Shown in pieces: positions 8,042 to 55,719 of a stretch of DNA of 64,000 nt. The notes below the pieces were generated by a model. The model worked only from the letters and a program-made list of their open reading frames with translations, was not told the DNA's origin and ran no database searches. The DNA comes from Nitrospiraceae bacterium. GTDB lineage: Bacteria; Nitrospirota; Nitrospiria; Nitrospirales; Nitrospiraceae. Every line of letters starts with the position of its first letter. Position 1 is the first letter of the stretch. The stretch lies in the NCBI GenBank assembly GCA_013140715.1, contig JABFSG010000002.1:1-64000 (forward strand), in the 5' to 3' direction. The translations under genes and the position numbers were made by a program.

Positions 8042-8959
8042 GTGAAATCGTGTGATTTGACAGGTAACGTGCTGGGCAAGCTGTCTCGACTCAGTGGCAT
8101 GGTCTTGGCACAAGAGACGGGCATGATGTGGCTTTTGACGTCTATCCTGGGTATGGCTGTCCTCTTGGGCTGTTCAGGGGAAAGCCCGAGCGTGAAAAAT
8201 GAAGAGCCTCAGGAGCTTCGGGTCGGCAGTGATGCGATTGAATTCACCCCGCCTTCCCCGGAAACCATCCCGGGCAGTCGACTGGGTGAACAGATCCGGC
8301 TGGGCTATGAAATTGTCGTCAATACGCAGGAATATGCCAAGTCCTATGTCGGCAACCGCCTGAATTGCACCAACTGTCATCTCGATGCCGGACTGAATCC
8401 GAACGCCGCCTCATTCGTTGGGCTTGCTTCGGTCTATCCCGAGTACCGAGCCCGCAACGCACGGATGAACACGCTCGCCGACCGTGTCAACGAGTGTTTC
8501 GAGCGGAGCCTCAATGGGCGAGCGCTTCCGCCTGACAGTTCCAAATTGCAAGCAGTTGTGGCTTATATCACCTGGCTTTCGCACGGGGTTCCACAAGGGG
8601 CCACATTGCCCTGGCGGGGTCTCCAGCGCATCGGCTCACCGCGCCCTCCTGACCCAGTCAACGGAAAGGCTCTGTTTGCAAACAAATGCGCCTTCTGTCA
8701 CGGCTCAGATGGACAGGGCACGATGGCGGCGCCGCCGGTTTGGGGGCCGCAGTCCTACAATATTGCCGCAGGCATGGCGAGGGTGACTGTGGCTGCGGCC
8801 TTTATCAAGTCCAACATGCCGCGCGGCTGGGGTTGGAGCCTGTCCGATAGTGACGCTTACGATGTGGCTGCCTATGTGAACAGCCAGCCTCGTCCGGATT
8901 TTCCTGGCAAGGCGAACGATTGGCCGAAGGGTGGCAAACCGGCGGACGCGCCGTACTGA
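8042..8959 (+). CDS. tsdA: TsdA-like dihaem thiosulfate dehydrogenase (lipoprotein)
   Basis: Two haem sites, CTNCH at 109-113 and CAFCH at 216-220, in a frame matching the TsdA family along its length: NCTNCHLDAG, then VYPEY, then RVNECFERSLNG (its Cys152 is at the position I expect for the Cys ligand of the first haem), then the second-domain motifs PPVWGPQSYN, AGMARV, MPRG and DAYDVAAYV. TsdA joins two thiosulfates into tetrathionate in the periplasm, giving electrons to a cytochrome. A lipobox ending at Cys44 suggests membrane anchoring. GTG 8042 is the longest start; ATG 8123 or 8126 is possible. The downstream transporter genes are from sulfur-uptake families, supporting a thiosulfate role. 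Reaction direction is not certain. Confidence 0.85.
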   Translation: MKSCDLTGNVLGKLSRLSGMVLAQETGMMWLLTSILGMAVLLGCSGESPSVKNEEPQELRVGSDAIEFTPPSPETIPGSRLGEQIRLGYEIVVNTQEYAKSYVGNRLNCTNCHLDAGLNPNAASFVGLASVYPEYRARNARMNTLADRVNECFERSLNGRALPPDSSKLQAVVAYITWLSHGVPQGATLPWRGLQRIGSPRPPDPVNGKALFANKCAFCHGSDGQGTMAAPPVWGPQSYNIAAGMARVTVAAAFIKSNMPRGWGWSLSDSDAYDVAAYVNSQPRPDFPGKANDWPKGGKPADAPY

Positions 8960-16390: not shown

Positions 16391-16716
16391 CTAGCAGGGT
16401 GTTGACAAACTGCTGGAGCATGATAAAGGCGCAAGGCCTGGATCCCCGCAGACTCATTCAGAAGCCATCGCAGGCTGTTTAGAAAAGCCAGCTTCTCACC
16501 CGCCCAACCCAGGCGGCTATTTCACCCGCCCGCCCTGAGTCTGCCAAGACAGCCTCTTCGCCCATGGACGCGCCCTTCCCCAGGCAAGGCCGCAGCGAAT
16601 GAAGAAGGCTTAGGTCGAGGTTAAGGTTAAGCGTCGAGTAGCTTCTTGTTTGCTCAACCTTAGCCTCAGCCTTAACCTTCCAATAACGCTGGCGGCCTTT
16701 GTCAACAGCCTGCTAG
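16391..16716. mobile_element. MITE-like element with 19-base terminal inverted repeats
   Basis: CTAGCAGGGTGTTGACAAA at 16391-16409 and the inverted CTAGCAGGCTGTTGACAAA at 16698-16716 match at 18 of 19 bases. The 326-base element between them codes for nothing; inside it, GAGGTTAAGGTTAAG and CTCAGCCTTAACCTT form another inverted pair. The ends resemble the AGCAGGATGCTGAAAAAG ends at 40634 and 58538, with CCGCCAGCG following in several copies, so the family is dispersed in the genome. It lies between converging cytochrome genes and its right end supplies the stop codon of the leftward one. Confidence 0.7.
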
Positions 16717-17075
16717 CTGACGACGTCGGGCGGCGATACCGCTCTGATGTATGACAGTACGTCCAGCATTTGCTGATCCGTCAATTTTCCGCGAAAGCTG
16801 TGCATCGGGCTGAACAATACGCCGTTCGAGATCGTCACGAGCAATTCCCAGTCGGTCTTGGAACGAACCATCGAAGACTGAAGATTCGCCGGTCGTACGA
16901 TCAGATCTTGGCTGTCAGGGCCTTTCCCATCCAATTGGCTTCCATGGCAGCGGAGGCAGTTCTTTTCGTAGATGGCCTGCCCCTCCTTGGGATTTCCCCG
17001 GACAGTCTGTCCGATAGCCAAGGAGCTACCCAGCACAATGACGCAAAGCGCTCCGATAATGCCGATGGCTTTCAT
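16713..17075 (-). CDS. Periplasmic monohaem cytochrome c
   Basis: Exported protein of 120 residues. The start at 17075 gives a clean signal (MKAIGIIGALCVIVLGSSLA, cleavage near IGQ); the longer frame to 17135 runs into the Usp gene. The haem site is CLRCHGSQLDGKG near residue 42, and the C-terminal helix is LTDQQMLDVLSYIRAV. It is the last gene of the leftward stress operon. Its TAG stop lies in the right terminal repeat of the element at 16391, so the original C-terminus may have been replaced on insertion. Position of the methionine ligand is likely Met in LFSPMHSFRG. Confidence 0.87.
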   Translation of the reverse strand: MKAIGIIGALCVIVLGSSLAIGQTVRGNPKEGQAIYEKNCLRCHGSQLDGKGPDSQDLIVRPANLQSSMVRSKTDWELLVTISNGVLFSPMHSFRGKLTDQQMLDVLSYIRAVSPPDVVS

Positions 17076-17124
17076 GCTGTTGGCCTTTCTGTTGCTGATG
17101 GTTTGAGGCAAAACCGGTTCCCTC

Positions 17125-17982
17125 TCAACGGACAACGAGCACTGAAGTGGGCGCCCGATGCACGATCCCGTGCGAGACGCTGCCGAGCAAGAAACGCTCG
17201 ACTCCCTTCCGCCCGTGGGAACCGACTACGATGAGGTCGTGATTCCGTCCCACGTCACACACTGTGGTGACGGGATCACCTAGGCGGGCATCGGTCGATA
17301 CGGCGAAGTGTGGACCGGCCAAGGCCTGGGCCGTGTCCTGCACGACCTGTTCAGCCTGTTGTTTATTTCGTTCAGACCAACCTTCGAGCCCCACCATCAA
17401 ATGCGGGTTGACCAGATTCAGTGAAGGGACCACCGAGAGGATTGTGACTGCAACCGGACTCTTGAAGGGATGCGACATCAGCCATGTCTGCAGATGGGTT
17501 GCATCCTCGCGTCCTTCCAACGCCAAGAGGACCTTGGTAACAGGGTGCGCTTTCCCTTTGACGATCAAGGTCGGCACCGTGGCATGGAGCAGAATACGGT
17601 GCGATACACTGCCTGCAAACAGTTCTATCATCCGGCTGTGGTCGTGTGTGCCCATTACAATGAGGTCGGCCTTGACCGCAGTAGCGCTGTCGAGGATGAA
17701 GGAGGCCGGGTGCCGGACTTCGCACAGGGTCTGGATGGAGGGGGTCTCAATCGGCAGCAGGGTGCGGCAGCGTTCAACGGCCTGATGTCCGGCATCGATC
17801 AAGGCTTGGCGGAATTCATTATACCCCTGCAGATTGACTGCACCGGCCACGAGGGGATTCTGGAACATGCCAAGATCGACGCCATGTACGAGCACGACCT
17901 CGTCCGGCCGGTAGAGGAACCCGATCTCTTCCACTGCGGCGAAGGCTTCATCCGACCAATCTACCCCTGCGAGGATTCTCAT
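17125..17982 (-). CDS. Tandem universal stress protein (UspA type), copy A
   Basis: Protein of 285 residues made of two Usp domains (1-143 and 147-285). Each ends with the nucleotide-binding G-x2-G-x9-G(S/T)-type loop: GTHDHSRMIELFAGSVSHRI, where the second G of the motif is altered, and GSHGRKGVERFLLGSVSHGI, which is intact. So the second domain probably binds ATP and the first less well. It is about as long as the gene at 18009 and similar along its whole length, a tandem duplication. It acts in the cytoplasm under stress such as starvation or low oxygen. The gap to the copy upstream is 26 bases, so they share a transcript. Confidence 0.92.
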   Translation of the reverse strand: MRILAGVDWSDEAFAAVEEIGFLYRPDEVVLVHGVDLGMFQNPLVAGAVNLQGYNEFRQALIDAGHQAVERCRTLLPIETPSIQTLCEVRHPASFILDSATAVKADLIVMGTHDHSRMIELFAGSVSHRILLHATVPTLIVKGKAHPVTKVLLALEGREDATHLQTWLMSHPFKSPVAVTILSVVPSLNLVNPHLMVGLEGWSERNKQQAEQVVQDTAQALAGPHFAVSTDARLGDPVTTVCDVGRNHDLIVVGSHGRKGVERFLLGSVSHGIVHRAPTSVLVVR

Positions 17983-18008: not shown

Positions 18009-18836
18009 TCAGCGCACCAGGAGTACGGAGCAGCCGGCTCGATGCACGATCCCGTCCGATACGCTGCCCAGCATGAAACGATTGAGCCCCTTGCGCCCAT
18101 GGGAGCTGACTACGATGAGATCGTGGTCCTGTCCTACTTCACACACGGTTGTGGCTGGATCGCCCAGGCGGACCTCGGTAGTCACAGTGAAGCGGGGGCT
18201 GGCCAGCGCCTGGGCCGTGTTCTTCACGACCTGTTCGGCATCGCGTTTACTCTGCTCAGACCAGTCTTGGACGTCCACCATCAGCTGCTCGCCGACATTG
18301 TGGCGTGGGATAACGACCGAGAGGATTGTGACCGCGACGGGATTCTTGAAGGGGTGGGAGGTCAGCCATGTTTGCAGACGGGTTGCATCCTCCTGCCCCT
18401 GCACCGCTATGAGAACGCGGGTGACAGGGCGAGCCTTTCCTTTCACGATCAAGGTCGGCATTGTGGCATGGAGCAGGACACGGTGCGACACGCTGCCGAT
18501 AAAGGCTTTCACCATCCGGCTGAGCTCGCGCGTGCCGACAGCGATGAGGTCGGGCTTGATTGTGGCGGCGCTGTCGAGAATAAAGGAGGCCGGGTCCTGG
18601 GCTTCACAGATCGCCCGGATGGAAGGTGTTTCAGCCGGCAACAGAGGGCGGCAACGCTCAACGATTTGGCGACCAGCGTCGAGCAAGGTCTGACGGAATT
18701 CGACGGTCCCCTGCAGGTTGGCTGTCTGGGTCACGCCATGGACGAAAACAACCTCGTCCGGCCGGTAGAGTAATCCGACTTGCTCCACGGCGGCCAAGGC
18801 TTCGTCCGACCGATCTACGCCTGCTATGATTTTCAT
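18009..18836 (-). CDS. Tandem universal stress protein (UspA type), copy B
   Basis: Protein of 275 residues, two Usp domains. The start at 18836 is set by GGAGGGAGC just upstream and matches the start MKIIAGVDRSDEA with MRILAGVDWSDEA of copy A. The longer frame overlaps the NTF2-like gene. Loops are GTRELSRMVKAFIGSVSHRV in the first domain and SSHGRKGLNRFMLGSVSDGI in the second, where the first glycine is Ser. ATP binding is likely but may differ from copy A. It lies between the NTF2-like gene (16 bases) and copy A in the leftward operon. Confidence 0.92.
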   Translation of the reverse strand: MKIIAGVDRSDEALAAVEQVGLLYRPDEVVFVHGVTQTANLQGTVEFRQTLLDAGRQIVERCRPLLPAETPSIRAICEAQDPASFILDSAATIKPDLIAVGTRELSRMVKAFIGSVSHRVLLHATMPTLIVKGKARPVTRVLIAVQGQEDATRLQTWLTSHPFKNPVAVTILSVVIPRHNVGEQLMVDVQDWSEQSKRDAEQVVKNTAQALASPRFTVTTEVRLGDPATTVCEVGQDHDLIVVSSHGRKGLNRFMLGSVSDGIVHRAGCSVLLVR

Positions 18837-18852: not shown

Positions 18853-19428
18853 TCAGAACAGCGGATGTGGGGCTGTGCCGAAGGGCAAGACCCGAGGCGT
18901 TTCGCCGGCGTTTCCGCTGATGCGCCAGTGGCCTCCTTCAAGCGTCAGGTAATGGACCTCTTGGTACCAGCTGTCGAGCGGGACTCGTAAGCCACTGGTC
19001 TTTGAGATGCCGGACAGGCTCCCTGTGCAGGTCACTTCGATGATGGCGTTGGAGCCAGATCCCACTTTGACGATTTTTGAAAAGAAATGCATCCCTCCCA
19101 GATCACGGTATTCCTTGAACAGATCGGACCAGATCTTCCGAATATCCGCCTGTTTCAACCCATGGTAGTTGTACTTGATCGCATGGAGCGCCATGATGCC
19201 TTCGAGATTCTCTTCAGCGATGGATGCGTCAGCCTTATGAAATACCTCCATGATCTGCTTGACGGTCGCCTGATCCACCTCCAGGACTGCGCCGGTCTGA
19301 AGCAATGTGTCTGCATACCCCGTCGTTCCGGTCATCAGGCTGAGTGCCGCTACAGTGCCCACTATCCATTGACGAGGCCAGGACCATCTCGACTGTGCCA
19401 TGGCGATATCTCTCGTGGGATCGATCAT
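18853..19428 (-). CDS. Secreted NTF2/SnoaL-like protein
   Basis: Exported protein of 191 residues; ATG 19428 follows AAGGAG at a good distance. The signal is residues 10-39 (WPRQWIVGTVAALSLMTGTT, ending GYA). The mature part has the alpha-plus-beta pattern of the NTF2-like fold: helices with ADASIAEENLEGIMALH, then strands ending WYQEVHYLTLEGGHWRISGN. Such proteins bind small ligands in a pocket; no catalytic residue set is clear. It sits between a zinc-ribbon gene and two Usp genes in an operon and is likely part of the same response. Confidence 0.7.
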   Translation of the reverse strand: MIDPTRDIAMAQSRWSWPRQWIVGTVAALSLMTGTTGYADTLLQTGAVLEVDQATVKQIMEVFHKADASIAEENLEGIMALHAIKYNYHGLKQADIRKIWSDLFKEYRDLGGMHFFSKIVKVGSGSNAIIEVTCTGSLSGISKTSGLRVPLDSWYQEVHYLTLEGGHWRISGNAGETPRVLPFGTAPHPLF

Positions 19429-19458: not shown

Positions 19459-19959
19459 TCAGCGACTCCAGATGACCCGTACGAATTGTTCCCCCTCGTC
19501 ATAATGGACACCCAAGGCTCCCTGGTAGGCGTGATGGAGAGATTCACCGATGCGCCGAGGGAGGTGCGTGTCTGTGGTGGAGATCACCAGGGTTGTGCCC
19601 TGCTGTTCGTATCCCATGATGCGGGACAAGGGGTGCTCCGGCTTCTCCTTGGCTTCTGTATTGTGGACCACCCCCATGATCTCTTCTTTGTGGTCAGCGA
19701 GAAAGGGACCGCTCAGAGTCAGGAAACCTTGAGGGTACTTGTCACGAATTCTGAGACAAGCAGGGCAGACGATCTCATCGGCTCCCGCCGGCCTAGGGTT
19801 CCAGGTCCAGCGACCGTTATGAAACAGGGCTCCGCACTCGGTGCAGACCGTCGGCTCTCTAAGCTTGCCCCGCAGTTTATAGGTGTCGTGTTGGTACTCT
19901 TGAACTGTTCGGTCTCTGCGATCTCCCAATCCTGACGGGATTTTGGAATGTGTGGACAT
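19459..19959 (-). CDS. BCAM0308-type zinc-ribbon protein
   Basis: Protein of 166 residues with an N-terminal zinc ribbon: CTECG near residue 39 and CPAC near residue 65, separated by about 25 residues, followed by an alpha/beta region ending GVHYDEGEQFVRVIWSR. This looks like the BCAM0308/NMD3-like family seen beside Usp and phosphoribosyltransferase stress genes in many proteobacteria. Biochemical role unknown; nucleic-acid or ribosome binding is a guess from the zinc ribbon. AAGGAGGGTG precedes the start. It follows the phosphoribosyltransferase by 32 bases in the operon. Confidence 0.75.
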   Translation of the reverse strand: MSTHSKIPSGLGDRRDRTVQEYQHDTYKLRGKLREPTVCTECGALFHNGRWTWNPRPAGADEIVCPACLRIRDKYPQGFLTLSGPFLADHKEEIMGVVHNTEAKEKPEHPLSRIMGYEQQGTTLVISTTDTHLPRRIGESLHHAYQGALGVHYDEGEQFVRVIWSR

Positions 19960-19991: not shown

Positions 19992-20663
19992 TTACGAGGC
20001 CGGTGAGGAGGGCATGCGTTCGAGCATCGCTTCCTCGGCCAGGTTTAAATACTTCACTACGTCGCGATCCTCGACTTGCGTGAAGTCGATGAAGAAATTC
20101 CCCACGGCTTCGAACTGTTCCGGTGTCATGAGGACTACCAGCTCGTTCACATGCGCTCGGACTTCACGGATTGTCGACGGAGGTCCGACTGGAATCGCCC
20201 CCACAAGACAGCGAGGCTGCAAATTGCGAATGGCAAGCGCCGAGGCGATGAAGGTCGAGCCAGTGGCGATGCCGTCGTCAACCAAGAGCACGGTGCGGCC
20301 CGTGAGTCTTGGGAGCGGCCTTCCTTGCCGGTACAGGTCTCTGCGTCTGGCGATCTCTTTCTCTTGGAGATGAATCGACCGCTCCAATTCATGCCTCGAT
20401 AGATCAAAGGAACCGATCGCCTCTTGATTCAAATAGTGAGACCCTGTTTCGGTTACCGCACCGATCGCATATTCGGGATTGCCGGGTGCGCCGATCTTGC
20501 GCGTGATAAAGACATCGAGCGGGAGATGGAGGGCGAGGCTGAGCTGGTAGCCTACAGCCACACCGCCGCGCGGCAGTGCGAGAATCAACGATGTCGGATC
20601 GCTGCGGTAGTGACTCAGCTTGTCCGCCAGTATTCGGCCCGCTTCTTCTCGATTGTGAAACAT
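19992..20663 (-). CDS. Phosphoribosyltransferase-domain protein
   Basis: Cytoplasmic protein of 223 residues. ATG 20663 follows GGAGGTGG; the longer frame runs through the promoter and is rejected. The type I PRTase signature is RTVLLVDDGIATGST near residues 118-132 (acidic pair plus PRPP loop), with ALPRGGVAVGY in the N-terminal half. Such stand-alone PRTases near Usp, Hsp20 and zinc-ribbon genes belong to stress or dormancy regulons in other bacteria; the substrate is unknown. It is the first gene of an apparent six-gene leftward operon reaching 16713, preceded by a strong sigma-54-type promoter at 20744. Confidence 0.85.
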   Translation of the reverse strand: MFHNREEAGRILADKLSHYRSDPTSLILALPRGGVAVGYQLSLALHLPLDVFITRKIGAPGNPEYAIGAVTETGSHYLNQEAIGSFDLSRHELERSIHLQEKEIARRRDLYRQGRPLPRLTGRTVLLVDDGIATGSTFIASALAIRNLQPRCLVGAIPVGPPSTIREVRAHVNELVVLMTPEQFEAVGNFFIDFTQVEDRDVVKYLNLAEEAMLERMPSSPAS

Positions 20664-20743
20664 GATGTTTCCACCTCCGATAACAACCGACGTTGGTCGT
20701 ACGACGGTTGTGCAGGTTGGAACGAGTTGCTGGGAAGAGAGGT

Positions 20744-20760
20744 TTGCATTGTCGGTGCCA
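20744..20760 (-). promoter_or_regulatory. Sigma-54 promoter of the stress operon
   Basis: On the minus strand TGGCAC-N5-ATGCAA matches the -24/-12 consensus with GG and GC spaced by ten bases. The predicted start is near 20735, about 70 bases before ATG 20663. The same 18 bases, and also a nearby CAGCAACTC(G/A)TTCC, precede the Hsp20 gene, showing a shared or copied control region. Confidence 0.72.
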
Positions 20761-20763
20761 CAG

Positions 20764-21075
20764 GCGTTGTCGCCGGCTGAGAGAGAGAGAAGTGAGCGGG
20801 GCAAAGTAGCTGCGACTAGATGTAAGGGCTACAGGTCAGGAAAAATCGGAAGTGTATTCGCTGGAATACGTTGAGAATTTTTCGAGCTGAGACCGGTGCG
20901 GATGGTCGCACATCGTCCGCCACAGTGGAGAATGGCTGTGTCGGATAGGTTTCAGGCACAGGGAGTGAGAGGCGGATAGGATGAAGGAGGAAGCTGCGCC
21001 ATCGTATTGGTTGAGGAGTTTCGGGCCAGTGAGCGGTTCAAGGACTGTTGCTAAACGCCTCACGCACTCACCCAA
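20764..21075. other. Upstream region of the stress operon
   Basis: About 310 bases with no supported gene. Being upstream of a sigma-54 site it is where an activator would bind. A GTAGC ... GGCTAC inverted pair lies near 20808-20832, but no known activator site was recognised. Confidence 0.35.
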
Positions 21076-21435
21076 TCATGCCTGTTCGCAGTCAGCGCGG
21101 CTCTTTTTTTGTGGAGGCCCTGTCGGAGGTCTTGGGCGTCTGGTGCGAGGGCGTGTGGGTATAGGGCGTTTCGATCGGTTAGCTAGAATGTCGAGATCCA
21201 TGGAGCTTCCGCAGTTGACACAACGCCGCAGCATGACCGGCTTGTCCCTCTCGTCCCGTTCCGTGGACGTCGTATAGTCGGGAATCAGTAATCCTCCACA
21301 ACGGAGGCAGGATTCCCCGGGCAGAGCCGATGCCTTCTTGCCCGGCTCATTTTTCCGGTCCTGTGCCTGGGGAGATGGGTCGGGCAGGTCGGGGGAAGGG
21401 GGAGTGATGTCTGGCGAGCTGGCGAAAGAAATCAT
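21076..21435 (-). CDS. Small zinc-ribbon protein, Pro/Arg-rich tail
   Basis: A protein of 119 residues beginning MISFASSPD at 21435, where its ATG overlaps the stop of the gene at 21432 (ATGA). CLRCGG near residue 43 and CVNCGS near residue 72 form a zinc ribbon, and the last 30 residues are Arg/Pro-rich and basic. It is probably cytoplasmic and may bind RNA or DNA. Coupling with another CXXC protein suggests a pair. Not assigned to any known family. A longer frame reaching 21630 exists but would overlap the first gene out of frame. Confidence 0.6.
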   Translation of the reverse strand: MISFASSPDITPPSPDLPDPSPQAQDRKNEPGKKASALPGESCLRCGGLLIPDYTTSTERDERDKPVMLRRCVNCGSSMDLDILANRSKRPIPTRPRTRRPRPPTGPPQKKSRADCEQA

Positions 21436-21725
21436 GGAGATGTTCCGATCTGTCTGAAATACTGCGCGGTCGTTTCCCGGACCTTTGCGGAACATTTCGG
21501 ACAGTAGGTGTGGGTGAGAGAAAAATCTCCCGGATTGAAGCCTCGTGTCTTTCGATAGGCCCGCGGTGTGAGCCAACGTTCGAAACCGGGAGATGATCCC
21601 GTTTCGTCTCGAATGAGTCCGCACAAACAACAGATAGGGAGCAGTGACGGTGCGATGAAGGTCCTTCTCTTCGGAGTAGAAGGCCCTTCACGAGGGATCT
21701 GAGTGGACAGAAATTCTGGAGACAT
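21432..21725 (-). CDS. Small CXXC zinc-finger protein
   Basis: A protein of 97 residues with CCLCG near residue 33 and YCPKC near residue 74, so four cysteines placed to hold a zinc ion across a basic loop (TPRAYRKTRGF). AGAGGT precedes the start. It overlaps the next leftward gene by four bases. Similar CXXC pairs with a C-terminal HTYCPKC are common in response-type proteins, where they sit beside sensor genes; here no kinase is nearby. Function unknown. Confidence 0.6.
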   Translation of the reverse strand: MSPEFLSTQIPREGPSTPKRRTFIAPSLLPICCLCGLIRDETGSSPGFERWLTPRAYRKTRGFNPGDFSLTHTYCPKCSAKVRETTAQYFRQIGTSP

Positions 21726-21818
21726 ATGGTACCTCTTTCATTCATTCGCTAGGCAGAGAGCGGGGGCGCAACGAAATGTCGAACTGTTCTGGATAGTTAT
21801 CAGAATCGGCCGCCCTTT

Positions 21819-21846
21819 GTGGAACTGGGGAGCTTCCTAGTTCCAC
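21819..21846. promoter_or_regulatory. 28-base near-perfect palindrome
   Basis: GTGGAACT at 21819-21826 pairs exactly with AGTTCCAC at 21839-21846, and the centre AGCT is itself symmetric. It lies about 40 bases after the stop of the small membrane protein and about 95 bases before the zinc-finger gene. It may be a terminator for the Hsp20 unit (no T-run) or an operator for the gene at 21725. Confidence 0.5.
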
Positions 21847-21887
21847 TCGAACAGCTTACCAGCGTCCACAAGGCGGTCGATCTTATT

Positions 21888-22046
21888 TCATCGGAGGATT
21901 CCCTCTGTGACTCCCACGCCGATCAGAAACATGGCAAAGAGAACTAGGAGCGCGATCAGCCACCATAGGTGATGCTGAGGTTCCGTGGTTCCTCGATGCC
22001 CTCGCATATCCCACGGCAGCTCAAGATAATGAGGATGTCGGAGCAT
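21888..22046 (-). CDS. Small single-span membrane protein, 52 residues
   Basis: ATG at 22046 is preceded by AAGGAGGGATCC, a strong ribosome-binding site, and lies 22 bases after the Hsp20 stop. The product starts MLRHPHYLELPWDMRGHRGT, has a histidine-rich N-terminal half and one hydrophobic segment (LWWLIALLVLFAMFLIGVGV), and stops at 21888. It is probably made with Hsp20 and may be a small stress membrane protein. No family is recognised; the call rests on the ribosome-binding site, the operon position and a well-formed transmembrane helix. Confidence 0.65.
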   Translation of the reverse strand: MLRHPHYLELPWDMRGHRGTTEPQHHLWWLIALLVLFAMFLIGVGVTEGILR

Positions 22047-22068
22047 GGATCCCTCCTTTCCGTCATTT

Positions 22069-22542
22069 TTAAGAAACCTTCACTTCGATCGATTTGGGCT
22101 TCGCCTTCTCCGACTTGGGTAGATGCACTTTCAAGACCCCCTCTTTGTACTCCGCGCTGACCTTGCTGCCGTCGGCATCTTCCGGCAAGGTGAAGCTACG
22201 CATAAAGCTCCCATAGGCCCGCTCGACCCTGTGGTACTTCTTCCCTTTTTCCTCTTTCTCATACTTCCGCTCGCCCGAAATGCTCATGACGTCGTCCTGG
22301 ATCGTCAGTTTGACGTCCTCCTTCTTCACTTCCGGCAGATCCGCCTTGATGAGATATTCCTTGTCGTCCTCGGTGATGTCGACGAGCGGCGACCATTCGG
22401 CGACGGTCATGGCTTCCTTCCCTGCCTCGGTCCGAGCAGTCGAGCGGCCCAAGTAGGTTGAGAGGCGTGTCTCCATTTCCTCCAAGTCTTTAAATGGATT
22501 CCAGCGAGTCATCGTTGGTTCCCAGCGGGTTAATGCAGGCAT
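22069..22542 (-). CDS. Small heat-shock protein, Hsp20 family
   Basis: Holdase chaperone of 157 residues. The start at 22542 follows AAGGAGG. The alpha-crystallin domain spans about 50-145: WSPLVDITEDDKEYLIKADLPEVKKEDVKLTI, the GERKYEKEEKGKKYHRVER strand, RSFTLPEDADGSKVSAEYKEGVL, and the closing GVLKVHLPK motif. The short N-terminus MPALTRWEPTMTRWNPFKDLEEM is typical of bacterial Hsp20. It binds unfolding proteins without ATP. A sigma-54-type promoter at 22592 is identical to that of the stress operon, so both should respond together. Confidence 0.95.
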   Translation of the reverse strand: MPALTRWEPTMTRWNPFKDLEEMETRLSTYLGRSTARTEAGKEAMTVAEWSPLVDITEDDKEYLIKADLPEVKKEDVKLTIQDDVMSISGERKYEKEEKGKKYHRVERAYGSFMRSFTLPEDADGSKVSAEYKEGVLKVHLPKSEKAKPKSIEVKVS

Positions 22543-22591
22543 GAGCGAACCTCCTTGTGATGAAACGGAATGAGTTGCTGAGCAAAGAATC

Positions 22592-22608
22592 TTGCATTGT
22601 CGGTGCCA
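22592..22608 (-). promoter_or_regulatory. Sigma-54 promoter of hsp20
   Basis: Minus-strand TGGCAC-N5-ATGCAA, identical to the site at 20744. The predicted start is near 22583, about 40 bases before ATG 22542. The stretch 22609-22861 beyond it holds no supported gene and is where an activator would bind. Confidence 0.72.
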
Positions 22609-22861
22609 CCGCACGCTGTCGTTGGAAGTAGAGTGAAATTCGAAGCAGCAGAGGGAGTTACAGGCTCAGGGCATCAGAGAGAGAACTGCATCGTCCGGGA
22701 GATTGAGGAATTCCGGGTCAGTGATGAATTCCGGGTTGCTGCCAAATACCTCAGCGGAAGGGGCGATACCGGCCAATGGCTATTAGTGAAGGGTGGTGAT
22801 CAGCTCTGCTTGGAAGAGGGCTTTCGATCGAAGTAGGTGGTGGTGAGGGAGTTGCAGCGCG

Positions 22862-23716
22862 TTATGTATTGTGAAGGAATCGGGGCCTGTCTCTCACGGA
22901 GACCATCTTGATCAGGTCACGAAGAGATACGAGGCCCACTACCTTGTTTTCTTCTGTCACTGCGAGGTGGCGAATCCGCTCTTTGGCCATGAGCCGGCTG
23001 GCGTCTCGAACGGTGCTGTCGATGTCGATCTGAACCAGGGGATAGTTCATCACCGACTTAATGCTCGTGCTACTCGCAGGGAGATGGTCCGCGATCACTT
23101 TCCTCACCAGGTCGGTCTCGGTCACAATTCCGACTATTTCTTCAGCTTGAGTCACGAAGAGCGAGCCGATCTCTTTCTCCGCCATCGTCTGCGCCGCTTC
23201 CAGCACAGTCCGTTCACTCGCAATGGTCTCTACCGCTTCTATCAACGATCGCATGAGCAGGCCAAGGGGCCGGTAGGCGCCGTCGAGATCACGGATGGGG
23301 CCTCCTTCTGAGTCGACGAAATAGCGTGCGAGATCCCGCATCGAAAGGATTCCGATAATCGCATCCTTGTCCGAGACACCGAGGTAGCGAGCCTGGTTCA
23401 TTTCCATGGAATGACTGGCATCCAGCATCGGGCGATCCGGGGCAATAGTCAGCAGCGGACTGGTCATGATCTGATCCACCGCGGAAAGAGATGGATCCAT
23501 TCCTTTGGCGAGCGATTTCCGGATCAGGTCCGATTCGGTCACGATTCCCGATCTGCTGGATGGATGACCCTGTGTCTCGGTTGACCCCACCAGAAGGGAC
23601 CCAATGTGTTGCCCTCTCATTCGCTCGGCAGCTGCTACGAGGGTGGTCTCTTGTGGAACGATTTCCAGGTTCCGGTGCATGAAATCTCCGACCGTACCTC
23701 CTGACCATACAGTCAT
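22862..23716 (-). CDS. Four-CBS-domain protein
   Basis: Cytoplasmic protein of 284 residues made of four CBS motifs in two pairs: GSLLVGSTET ... GIVTESDLIRKSL (about 35-70), ARYLGVSDKDAIIGILSMRDLARYF (about 110-135), GSLFVTQAEEIVGIVTETDLVRKVI (about 180-205) and IRHLAVTEENKVVGLVSLRDLIKMV (about 245-270). The start at 23716 removes 33 unlikely residues and follows AAAGGGAA. Such proteins bind AMP or ATP and sense energy state. It lies among stress genes but in its own unit, between Hsp20 and YbaK. Its partner is unknown. Confidence 0.9.
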   Translation of the reverse strand: MTVWSGGTVGDFMHRNLEIVPQETTLVAAAERMRGQHIGSLLVGSTETQGHPSSRSGIVTESDLIRKSLAKGMDPSLSAVDQIMTSPLLTIAPDRPMLDASHSMEMNQARYLGVSDKDAIIGILSMRDLARYFVDSEGGPIRDLDGAYRPLGLLMRSLIEAVETIASERTVLEAAQTMAEKEIGSLFVTQAEEIVGIVTETDLVRKVIADHLPASSTSIKSVMNYPLVQIDIDSTVRDASRLMAKERIRHLAVTEENKVVGLVSLRDLIKMVSVRDRPRFLHNT

Positions 23717-23909
23717 AGCCGTTCCCTTTCTTTGTGAGACAGCAAGACGTTCTATTTTTCCGTTCTGGTCATCCCATTGGGCGGAGATTATTTGTGCATG
23801 GTGCAAGCGTATCATTTAGGAACGGTATAAGGCGAGCGTAGGATAGCGCCTTTGGAGAGCGAAGAGTCTTCTGTGGTTGACTGAAGTCAACCAGCGAGTA
23901 GTCAGCCTG

Positions 23910-24395
23910 CTAGCCCTCGATCTTCGACGGCTCATGATGGAACACGGCGACCTTCGGGCGAACAAGATCGGCAAAGTCCTTGTACCGTAGTTTCATCGCG
24001 CCGACGTAGGTTCCTGCTTCAAATACGATGGATTCGTCTTCCGTCAGGAGTTGATCGACGTACACCTCCACCCCGTAGAGATTGCCGAACGGTGGCATCG
24101 TTCCCACTTGGCAATCGGGGAACAGATTTGCGATCTCTGATTCCGTTGCCAGCCGCACATCGCGGACGTCCAGTTCATCCCGCAATCGTTTCAGATCCAC
24201 GCGCCAAGTGGAAGGCAATACCGTCATGATGAAATAGTTGTCGGCCTTCACCATTACGACTTTGGCGACGAGTTTACCAGGCACAGCGAGCACCTGTGCC
24301 ACGTCGTGCGCGGTATAGGCCTTTTGGTGGTTGACCAGTTCATAGGGAATCTTGTTCGCATCGAGATAACTCTGGAGTCGTTTCAGGATCGGCAT
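23910..24395 (-). CDS. YbaK/EbsC-family aminoacyl-tRNA deacylase
   Basis: Cytoplasmic protein of 161 residues with the YbaK fold: YTAHDVAQVLAVPGKLVAKVVMVKAD near 27-52, a conserved lysine in that stretch, then VGTMPPFGNLYGVEVYVDQLL. Members clear mischarged tRNA (Cys-tRNAPro and similar). This one is the short stand-alone type. ATG 24395 follows GGGAGG; the longer frame to 24440 is less likely. A near-perfect sigma-54 site lies 70 bases upstream, so it may be part of the stress regulon. Confidence 0.88.
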   Translation of the reverse strand: MPILKRLQSYLDANKIPYELVNHQKAYTAHDVAQVLAVPGKLVAKVVMVKADNYFIMTVLPSTWRVDLKRLRDELDVRDVRLATESEIANLFPDCQVGTMPPFGNLYGVEVYVDQLLTEDESIVFEAGTYVGAMKLRYKDFADLVRPKVAVFHHEPSKIEG

Positions 24396-24463
24396 GGCAA
24401 CCTCCCGCGCTGATGGACAAGAGACACATCTGTGAGGCACTAGGTCCGTTTATGGCTCGGATA

Positions 24464-24480
24464 AGCAAAGAAAGTGCCAT
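24464..24480 (-). promoter_or_regulatory. Sigma-54 promoter of the YbaK gene
   Basis: Minus-strand TGGCAC-N5-TTGCTT is the full -24/-12 consensus with correct spacing. The predicted start is near 24454, about 60 bases before ATG 24395. Confidence 0.68.
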
Positions 24481-24642
24481 GAATACTGAGTTGTCATTAC
24501 TCCCTCTCCCTCGGTAACTCGCTCCTTCCGGTTCTTCGTCTCGGGCCTCTCTTCTGTCGCATTTCACCACGCTCCCCCTCTGCCACCGTGGCAAAACGCT
24601 CCTGTGTTGCTCAGTCATCCCGCCTAAGTTAGGAGTTTTCTG

Positions 24643-24658
24643 TGGCACACCTCCTGCT
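24643..24658 (+). promoter_or_regulatory. Sigma-54-like site before the RND operon
   Basis: TGGCAC-N5-CTGCTG keeps GG-N10-GC. The predicted start near 24668 leaves only about 15 bases before ATG 24684. It is on the opposite strand from the YbaK promoter, so the 24396-24683 region may be a divergent control region; otherwise it holds nothing recognised. Confidence 0.35.
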
Positions 24659-55435: not shown

Positions 55436-55719
55436 TGCCTTTCCGTCCCGATATCCCTCCGCATGTTGCTGAGGTGATTCGCTCTCTCCATCCTGATCTG
55501 AAACGCTCCATCAAATCGGCGGTTCGCGCGATCGCGCCCGACCCGGAATGTGGAGTACCGCTCCGCCGTGAACTTGAAGGACTGAGGAAGTTCCGTGTGC
55601 GCCGCTTTCGCATTGTCTATGCCATCGACCGCAAGGCTCGCACAATTCGCCTCATGGCAGTGGGCCATCGTCAATCGATCTACGAGGAGCTTTCGGACCA
55701 ACTGAGGGAAAAGACATAG
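55435..55719 (+). CDS. RelE-type toxin
   Basis: Protein of 94 residues starting at ATG 55435 (GTG 55432 possible), overlapping the antitoxin stop by one base. It has PPHVAEVIRSLHPDLKRSIKSAVRAIAPDPECGVPLRRELEGLRKFRVRRFRIVYAIDRKARTIRLMAVGHRQSIYEEL, the RelE core with several basic residues (RKFRVRRFR) for RNA and a His near the end for the ribosome-dependent cleavage site. Coupled with a Phd-type partner. The gene appears intact. Confidence 0.9.
   Translation: MPFRPDIPPHVAEVIRSLHPDLKRSIKSAVRAIAPDPECGVPLRRELEGLRKFRVRRFRIVYAIDRKARTIRLMAVGHRQSIYEELSDQLREKT

Follow-up and report, generated by a model that had tools for sequence, protein, structure and literature searches.

The window analysed here, 64,000 nucleotides of a Nitrospiraceae bacterium (assembly GCA_013140715.1, contig JABFSG010000002.1, positions 1 to 64,000), carries on its minus strand a group of stress-related genes centred on a small heat-shock protein, together with three motifs of the sigma-54 (-24/-12) promoter type. 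The Hsp20 gene (22069-22542; PF00011, E 1.7e-29) is followed by the gene of a 52-residue single-span membrane protein, termed Mem52 (21888-22046), which is conserved in the corresponding operon of relatives. Two inserted cysteine-rich open reading frames (ORFs) come next, one of 97 residues (21432-21725) at the place where the operon is split and a second, zinc-ribbon-like one (21076-21630) with an uncertain start codon. The rear half of the operon opens with a phosphoribosyltransferase gene (PRT, 19992-20666; PF00156, E 1.1e-12) that has the Shine-Dalgarno-like sequence GGAGGTGG. It continues with a BCAM0308-family gene (19459-19959; NF040826, E 2e-63), a gene labelled as NTF2-like and secreted (18853-19428), two tandem genes of universal stress proteins (Usp; 18009-18836 and 17125-17982; PF00582, E 4.4e-37 and 1e-40) and, as last gene, a small cytochrome c (16713-17135; PF13442, E 6.8e-11) whose ATG is probably located near 17075. 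A YbaK-like aminoacyl-tRNA editing protein (23910-24395; PF04073, E 9.5e-25, with TIGR00011 below its cut-off) forms a separate unit. An earlier sequence-only reading of this DNA had named most of these genes from their translations, and Pfam and NCBIfam searches agreed with it on PRT, both Usp, cytochrome c, Hsp20 and the YbaK-like editing protein. Its 'zinc-ribbon' gene turned out to be the BCAM0308-family member, and the product of its 'NTF2-like' gene had no match in Pfam or NCBIfam, which leaves that label unconfirmed.

The same reading had described two identical 18-base sigma-54 promoters and a third motif in front of YbaK, all facing leftward and all with GG-N10-GC spacing, and these observations were reproduced. 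On the minus strand, GTGGCACCGACAATGCAA stands before the Hsp20 unit (22592-22609) and once more before PRT (20744-20761), with 18 of 18 bases the same. At equal spacing downstream of both lies the repeat CAGCAACTC (22572-22580 and 20724-20732), predicted to lie within the initial transcribed stretch of the Hsp20 unit and of the PRT unit; in the Hsp20 unit its conservation is confined to the genus. The motif of the YbaK gene, TGGCACTTTCTTTGCT (24464-24479), has TTGCT as its -12 element, and the Hsp20-type promoter has RTGCA.

Within the window alone, a loose motif with one mismatch allowed was as frequent as expected by chance (15 observed, 16.7 expected), and genome-wide and comparative tests were therefore used. 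Genome-wide counts came from pattern and model searches of the genome, a Nitrospira by its relatives, which comprises 3.58 Mb in 105 contigs. The search for additional motif copies, proposed along with the original observation, retrieved 14 exact sites of TGGCACN5WTGCW versus 6 in the reversed control. Three of the 14 fall on one strand within 3.7 kb (Poisson P ~6e-8), and by this sequence statistic the three motifs are real and non-random. Copies with three mismatches elsewhere in the genome, including 55608-55624, are unsupported as promoters: the two that were examined (55608-55624 and C68:77219) were either not followed by a convincing gene start or located within a long open frame. The sequence TGGCACACCTCCTGCT at 24643-24658 on the plus strand falls on the start of an efflux-type gene, reads as coding and was excluded from the count.

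The promoters are conserved together with their genes. The comparison used 80 Hsp20 relatives with flanking DNA. TGGCAY-N5-RTGCA preceded Hsp20 throughout Nitrospira, in 62 distinct promoter regions, among them those of N. moscoviensis (TGGCATTGTCGATGCAT, L108) and N. defluvii (TGGCATCGAGTCTGCAA, L116), and most columns flanking the element were just 30-60% identical. Since the aligned promoters were picked by a pattern that fixes the GG and GC letters, the invariance of these letters is partly a product of the selection, and the informative features are the presence, position and orientation of the element. The YbaK promoter TGGCAY-TYCCYTTGCT was retained by orthologues with protein identities as low as 63%, 27 of 28 in all. 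The comparison of the same gaps in related genomes, which the sequence-only reading had suggested as a check, thus found both motifs retained alongside the genes. An apparent loss of the motif before Hsp20 in many relatives was an artefact of a search window of only 300 bp; in these genomes the promoter is found some 320 bp upstream of Hsp20, with a small extra ORF in between. This ORF (DDQVIDVMLHSRTCDLEEVTRQCPNLTWNQVFLAVDRLSRSG...; L073:5140-5349 and equivalents), found between the sigma-54 promoter and Hsp20 in many relatives and missing from the window, looks like the gene of a small winged-helix-type protein.

Comparison of the upstream regions revealed a further block, additional to the motifs reported earlier, which is a predicted enhancer. 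It is an imperfect palindrome with the ideal form TGTCGCATWATGCGACA and the consensus CACTGCCCCGTAATGCCACAG, also written TGTCGCA-N3-TGCGACA. The block occurs in both the Hsp20 and the YbaK promoters, two non-homologous groups, and reached 24 bits across 89 promoters, compared with 8-9 bits after shuffling. In most promoters the enhancer core starts 112-114 bp upstream of the -24 TGG, and the off-peak distances (92-105 and 124-132 bp) favour a phasing of about 10.5 bp (p ~0.005, with relatedness ignored). The putative activator-binding sites of the window lie on the minus strand: CACTGACCCGGAATTCCTCAAT at the Hsp20 promoter (22702-22723; core start 113 bp upstream of TGG), CACTGGCCCGAAACTCCTCAAC at the PRT promoter (21010-21031; core start 269 bp upstream) and GTGGTGAAATGCGACAG (24554-24570), a divergent variant at the YbaK promoter that is strong in most relatives. 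A blind search of 175 genomes of the family with a pattern of enhancer core, 80-109 bp and promoter gave 54 matches in 51 genomes, compared with 2 in the reversed control. All 30 loci fetched from these matches were the Hsp20 operon, 29 with Hsp20 found and one with Mem52-PRT-Usp. A third conserved block, roughly CTAACTCC, is located about 50 bp upstream of -24 in most Hsp20 and YbaK promoter regions and could be the site of a bending protein or a second activator site.

The usual order in relatives is [sigma-54]-(small ORF)-Hsp20-Mem52-PRT-BCAM0308-NTF2-like-Usp-cytochrome c, with one promoter and one direction. Mem52 and PRT are separated by one or two cysteine-rich ORFs in the window (21076-21725) and in a few sister genomes; there the second promoter copy stands before PRT, as in sisters G135 (L164) and G148 (L071), with variants in L167 and L183. 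Given a one-promoter operon in relatives and a split operon with a second copy in the lineage of the window, the two identical promoters are best read from this comparison as one ancestral promoter that was later duplicated. Of the original claim of two identical promoters, the identity stands and the history is corrected: ancestrally they were the one promoter of one operon, and the PRT copy would have arisen with the lineage-specific split. This copy would keep the rear half of the operon, from PRT onward, under sigma-54 after the split. That it is instead a non-functional relic of the duplication, with the genes from PRT to cytochrome c being read through from Hsp20, appears unlikely. In its favour, the intervening ORFs lie on the same strand and the enhancer is 269 bp away rather than about 113 bp; the 18-bp core, however, is unaltered though the surrounding bases diverged, the enhancer copy still scores 22.5 and ranks third in the genome, the extra 156 bp are close to 15 helical turns, and the same arrangement is retained in a sister genome. 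Just past the operon end, at about 16605-16685, an imperfect inverted repeat (GGTTAAGGTTAAGCG ... AACCTTAGCCTCAGCCTTAACC) is a possible terminator or repeat element.

A scan for GAFTGA near the Hsp20 operon found no activator gene, and a candidate regulator was found via the enhancer instead. A matrix built from the Hsp20 and YbaK sites only was used to scan the fetched activator loci and singled out one response-regulator gene (G000:C69:96227-97600, corresponding to L253:6228-7601). Its product combines the domains REC, Sigma54_activat and HTH_8 (a Fis-type helix-turn-helix) and belongs to the NtrC family. Directly downstream, with an overlap of 4 bases, follows a gene for a histidine kinase of the architecture PAS-HisKA-HATPase, in which no transmembrane segment was evident. 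The closest named models are AtoC, ZraR and NtrC for the regulator and AtoS and ZraS for the kinase (NCBIfam), and both Nitrospira proteins score well below the curated cut-offs of these ZraSR, AtoSC and NtrBC models. In whole-genome searches with the enhancer model, the regulator site ranked first in its own genome, in G117 and in N. defluvii (G017), and other top matches included the Hsp20, YbaK and PRT sites; as the training sites included that of the regulator, this ranking is not independent of the training, and the scan of activator loci is the independent step. Of the other regulator orthologues with at least 80% identity, 40 of 47 had the enhancer before the gene (two samples, with 25 of 28 and 15 of 19). 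Frequently two copies stand there some 32 bp from each other, and in some cases the site comes close to the perfect palindrome of the ideal form. A sigma-54-like site, TGGTCCYRCCYTTGCA, precedes the regulator in 25 of 29 orthologues and in the genome of the window itself, and a search of 18 genera found the regulator gene in 16. The regulator, PRT and YbaK are all absent from two reduced genomes of the same genus (G161 and G133; 1.7-1.8 Mb), which suggests loss of the whole circuit, and G161 has no enhancer matches. From these sequence relationships, the response regulator and its PAS kinase are likely the activating pair of the promoters. The regulator is probably autoregulated, since the enhancer recurs in front of its gene; both this and the direction that the autoregulation would take are what we infer.

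Several observations weigh against this model. A few Nitrospira homologues of Hsp20 (L114, L131, L152) have no motif nearby, and the YbaK enhancer is weak in the species of the window. None of 10 regulator orthologues below 80% identity, from more distant genera, has the enhancer. The loop of the regulator that would contact sigma-54 reads GAFTDA and not GAFTGA, a variant shared by one other activator of the genome (L017). Within the genus, the occurrence of PRT and that of the regulator are in no more than moderate agreement (Fisher p 0.047, a value that includes the incompleteness of metagenome-assembled genomes). Finally, a second activator gene (L253:9390-10787) lies two genes past the kinase behind palindromes of its own. 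The latter are the pair CTGTCGCAATCTGCGACAG and a weaker CTGTCGCAATTTTCATCAG, 33 bp apart (L253:8742-8793, at 8742 and 8775; G000:C69 ~98741-98792), directly downstream of the kinase and in front of a receiver-protein gene and the second activator gene. As this activator stands behind similar palindromes, the choice between the two as binder of the enhancer is not proven, and the second activator may form a second layer of the circuit. We consider it improbable that a different activator recognises the enhancer, the best candidate being this neighbouring PAS-like/NifA-type protein, and that the response regulator is just one more target. The neighbourhood of both activators, the palindrome pair and the canonical GAFTGA of the second one would fit such an arrangement. 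Against it stand the conserved best site before the response regulator and the result that of 14 other measurable activator genes none had a strong site (score of at least 13) in its own 450 bp upstream.

A genome-wide search for rpoN and its activators, also proposed with the first observation, found rpoN as a single copy (E 1.3e-56) along with about 25 activator genes. With RpoN and many enhancer-binding proteins present, and with the promoters forming phylogenetic footprints in relatives that retain the genes, the interpretation as sigma-54 promoters is supported, and neither the lack of rpoN nor a loss of motifs beside retained genes was encountered. Upstream of the Hsp20, PRT and YbaK units a sigma-70 scan detected no promoter-like site. 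The TGGCAY-N5-NTGCW blocks might in principle be operators of another transcription factor, the genes being read by sigma-70 or another sigma factor, and the -12 element of the Hsp20 promoter, RTGC in place of the commoner TTGC, lends this some plausibility. Against it, the GG-N10-GC spacing is retained, the block always faces the same way ahead of the unit's first gene, the YbaK promoter matches the sigma-54 consensus in full, an enhancer of the kind bound by sigma-54 activators lies at constant distance, and no sigma-70 site was recovered, so that we regard an operator role as very improbable. Hsp20 genes are commonly controlled by sigma-32, HrcA/CIRCE or an RNA thermometer, yet a heat-shock unit of this kind with sigma-54-like matches by chance is hardly credible here, given that the matches are conserved genus-wide and extremely specific, that the operon combines Usp, PRT and BCAM0308-type genes rather than dnaK or groEL, and that an Rfam scan of the region, 5' part included, gave no match, either to an RNA thermometer or to any other known element. 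Between the Hsp20 and YbaK units lies a gene with a CBS domain (22862-23716) that has no sigma-54 motif; the only sigma-70-like site of the region is found upstream of it (23815-23787), and CBS genes adjoin Hsp20 in several relatives too.

Taken together, the motifs are probably true RpoN promoters of a small and ancient Nitrospira stress regulon that comprises the Hsp20 operon and YbaK and would be controlled through an enhancer by a response-regulator activator, with limitation of oxygen or energy as the likely trigger. In this family of systems, the RpoN polymerase is held at the -24/-12 promoter until a phosphorylated oligomer of the NtrC type, bound to an enhancer, acts on it. By analogy, RpoN-RNA polymerase would wait at the promoters of the Hsp20 operon and YbaK, and an NtrC-family activator, presumably the response regulator encoded with the soluble PAS histidine kinase, would bind the enhancer about 113 bp upstream, in most cases on the same face of the helix. 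Once phosphorylated, its oligomer would remodel the waiting polymerase and thereby permit transcription. The trigger is likely oxygen or energy limitation rather than heat, judging from the gene content, since the BCAM0308 family, Usp, PRT and cytochrome c resemble low-oxygen loci. A soluble PAS kinase fits an internal redox or oxygen cue without proving one.

The use of sigma-54 for Hsp20 and Usp genes had been called unusual. It is indeed uncommon, but not unprecedented (PMC4316790, PMC12316311, PMC11841059). The small heat-shock gene ibpB of Escherichia coli is cited as having a sigma-54 promoter (PMC4316790); there it is a secondary promoter inside a sigma-32 operon, whereas in Nitrospira the sigma-54 promoter is the only recognisable one and would drive the whole operon including Usp. 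For other phyla, an in-silico survey of 2025 predicted sigma-54 targets that include the families IbpA and Usp (PMC12316311). Among characterised systems, NmpRSTU of Myxococcus xanthus comes closest; in it the hypoxia-linked regulator NmpR activates CBS and Usp genes via sigma-54 (PMC11841059). Both systems share an NtrC-like two-component regulator, sigma-54 promoters and a palindromic enhancer with sites before the genes of the system itself. The enhancers differ, however (GCGCA-N5-TGCGC for NmpR), the NmpR targets named in PMC11841059 do not include Hsp20, PRT or BCAM0308, and the Myxococcus kinase chain has a globin sensor in contrast to the single soluble PAS kinase in Nitrospira. Identity with the NmpR regulon was rejected on account of the different enhancer; the likeness is one of workings, and membership is not claimed.

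DosR of Mycobacterium tuberculosis is a NarL-type regulator that works with ordinary sigma factors and is not known to use sigma-54. Its hypoxia regulon is likewise under two-component control and includes a phosphoribosyltransferase (Rv0571c), Usp and an alpha-crystallin-type heat-shock protein (PMC5309233, PMC6127331). The BCAM0308 family (NF040826) was named for a low-oxygen-activated locus of Burkholderia, the lxa locus of B. cenocepacia (BCAM0275-BCAM0323), which contains several Usp, a heat-shock protein and cytochrome c (PMC6127331). The Nitrospira operon shares this gene vocabulary and the BCAM0308 family itself; the lxa locus is much larger, and Anr/FixK-type control, not sigma-54, has been discussed for it (PMC6127331). 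With Hsp20, Usp, PRT and BCAM0308 together, the gene content corresponds to a low-oxygen module of the lxa/DosR kind.

Further possible targets are marked by an enhancer match and a sigma-54-like element some 90-150 bp from it. Such matches preceded a Usp gene (L309) and a BCAM0308-like paralogue (L292) in G117, and a LigD-phosphoesterase (L313) and a PolX polymerase gene (L302) in G151; each comes from one species and is tentative for this reason. A hydrogenase-type Fe-S/flavin operon diverges from the Hsp20 operon in several relatives (L118:2430-5268, L119, L121, L135, L226, L227, L242). In six of these, a conserved GG-N10-GC element, CGGCTCTCATCTTGCA, lies 76 bp before the hydrogenase-type operon, and the shared enhancer is placed between both promoters. 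Another Usp gene of the window's own genome (element at G000:C11:15481-15496, L029) starts 52 bp after the start of TGGCACCGGCTTTGCT, without an enhancer, and is possibly another sigma-54 unit. A more far-reaching and so far tentative reading sees in these genes a dormancy or low-oxygen regulon of the Nitrospiraceae as functional counterpart of DosR, in which one soluble PAS-kinase/NtrC-type pair would act through sigma-54 and an autoregulated enhancer on species-specific targets. The extra Usp and BCAM0308 paralogues, the LigD-phosphoesterase, PolX and the divergent hydrogenase-type operon would then be its species-specific recruits.

Nitrospira are widespread bacteria that oxidise nitrite and perform complete nitrification in soils, waters and treatment plants. 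An open-licence literature search retrieved no description of this regulon in Nitrospira, and no Nitrospira stress regulator turned up. In proteomics of N. marina, Usp were among the proteins with the strongest rises at low oxygen and were themselves proposed as regulators (PMC8115632). Instead of Usp as regulators, the present analysis puts forward a specific cis-element and a candidate regulator for stress in Nitrospira. At the level of sequence comparison, a conserved sigma-54 regulon is real in this genus, sigma-54 control of small heat-shock proteins itself being already precedented. Sigma-54 would here fill a role that is held elsewhere by sigma-32, sigma-B or DosR-type regulators, and the PRT copy would be an example of a split operon that retains its control through a gained promoter copy. 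The proposed circuit may thereby provide a testable explanation of how Nitrospira respond to stress such as low oxygen.

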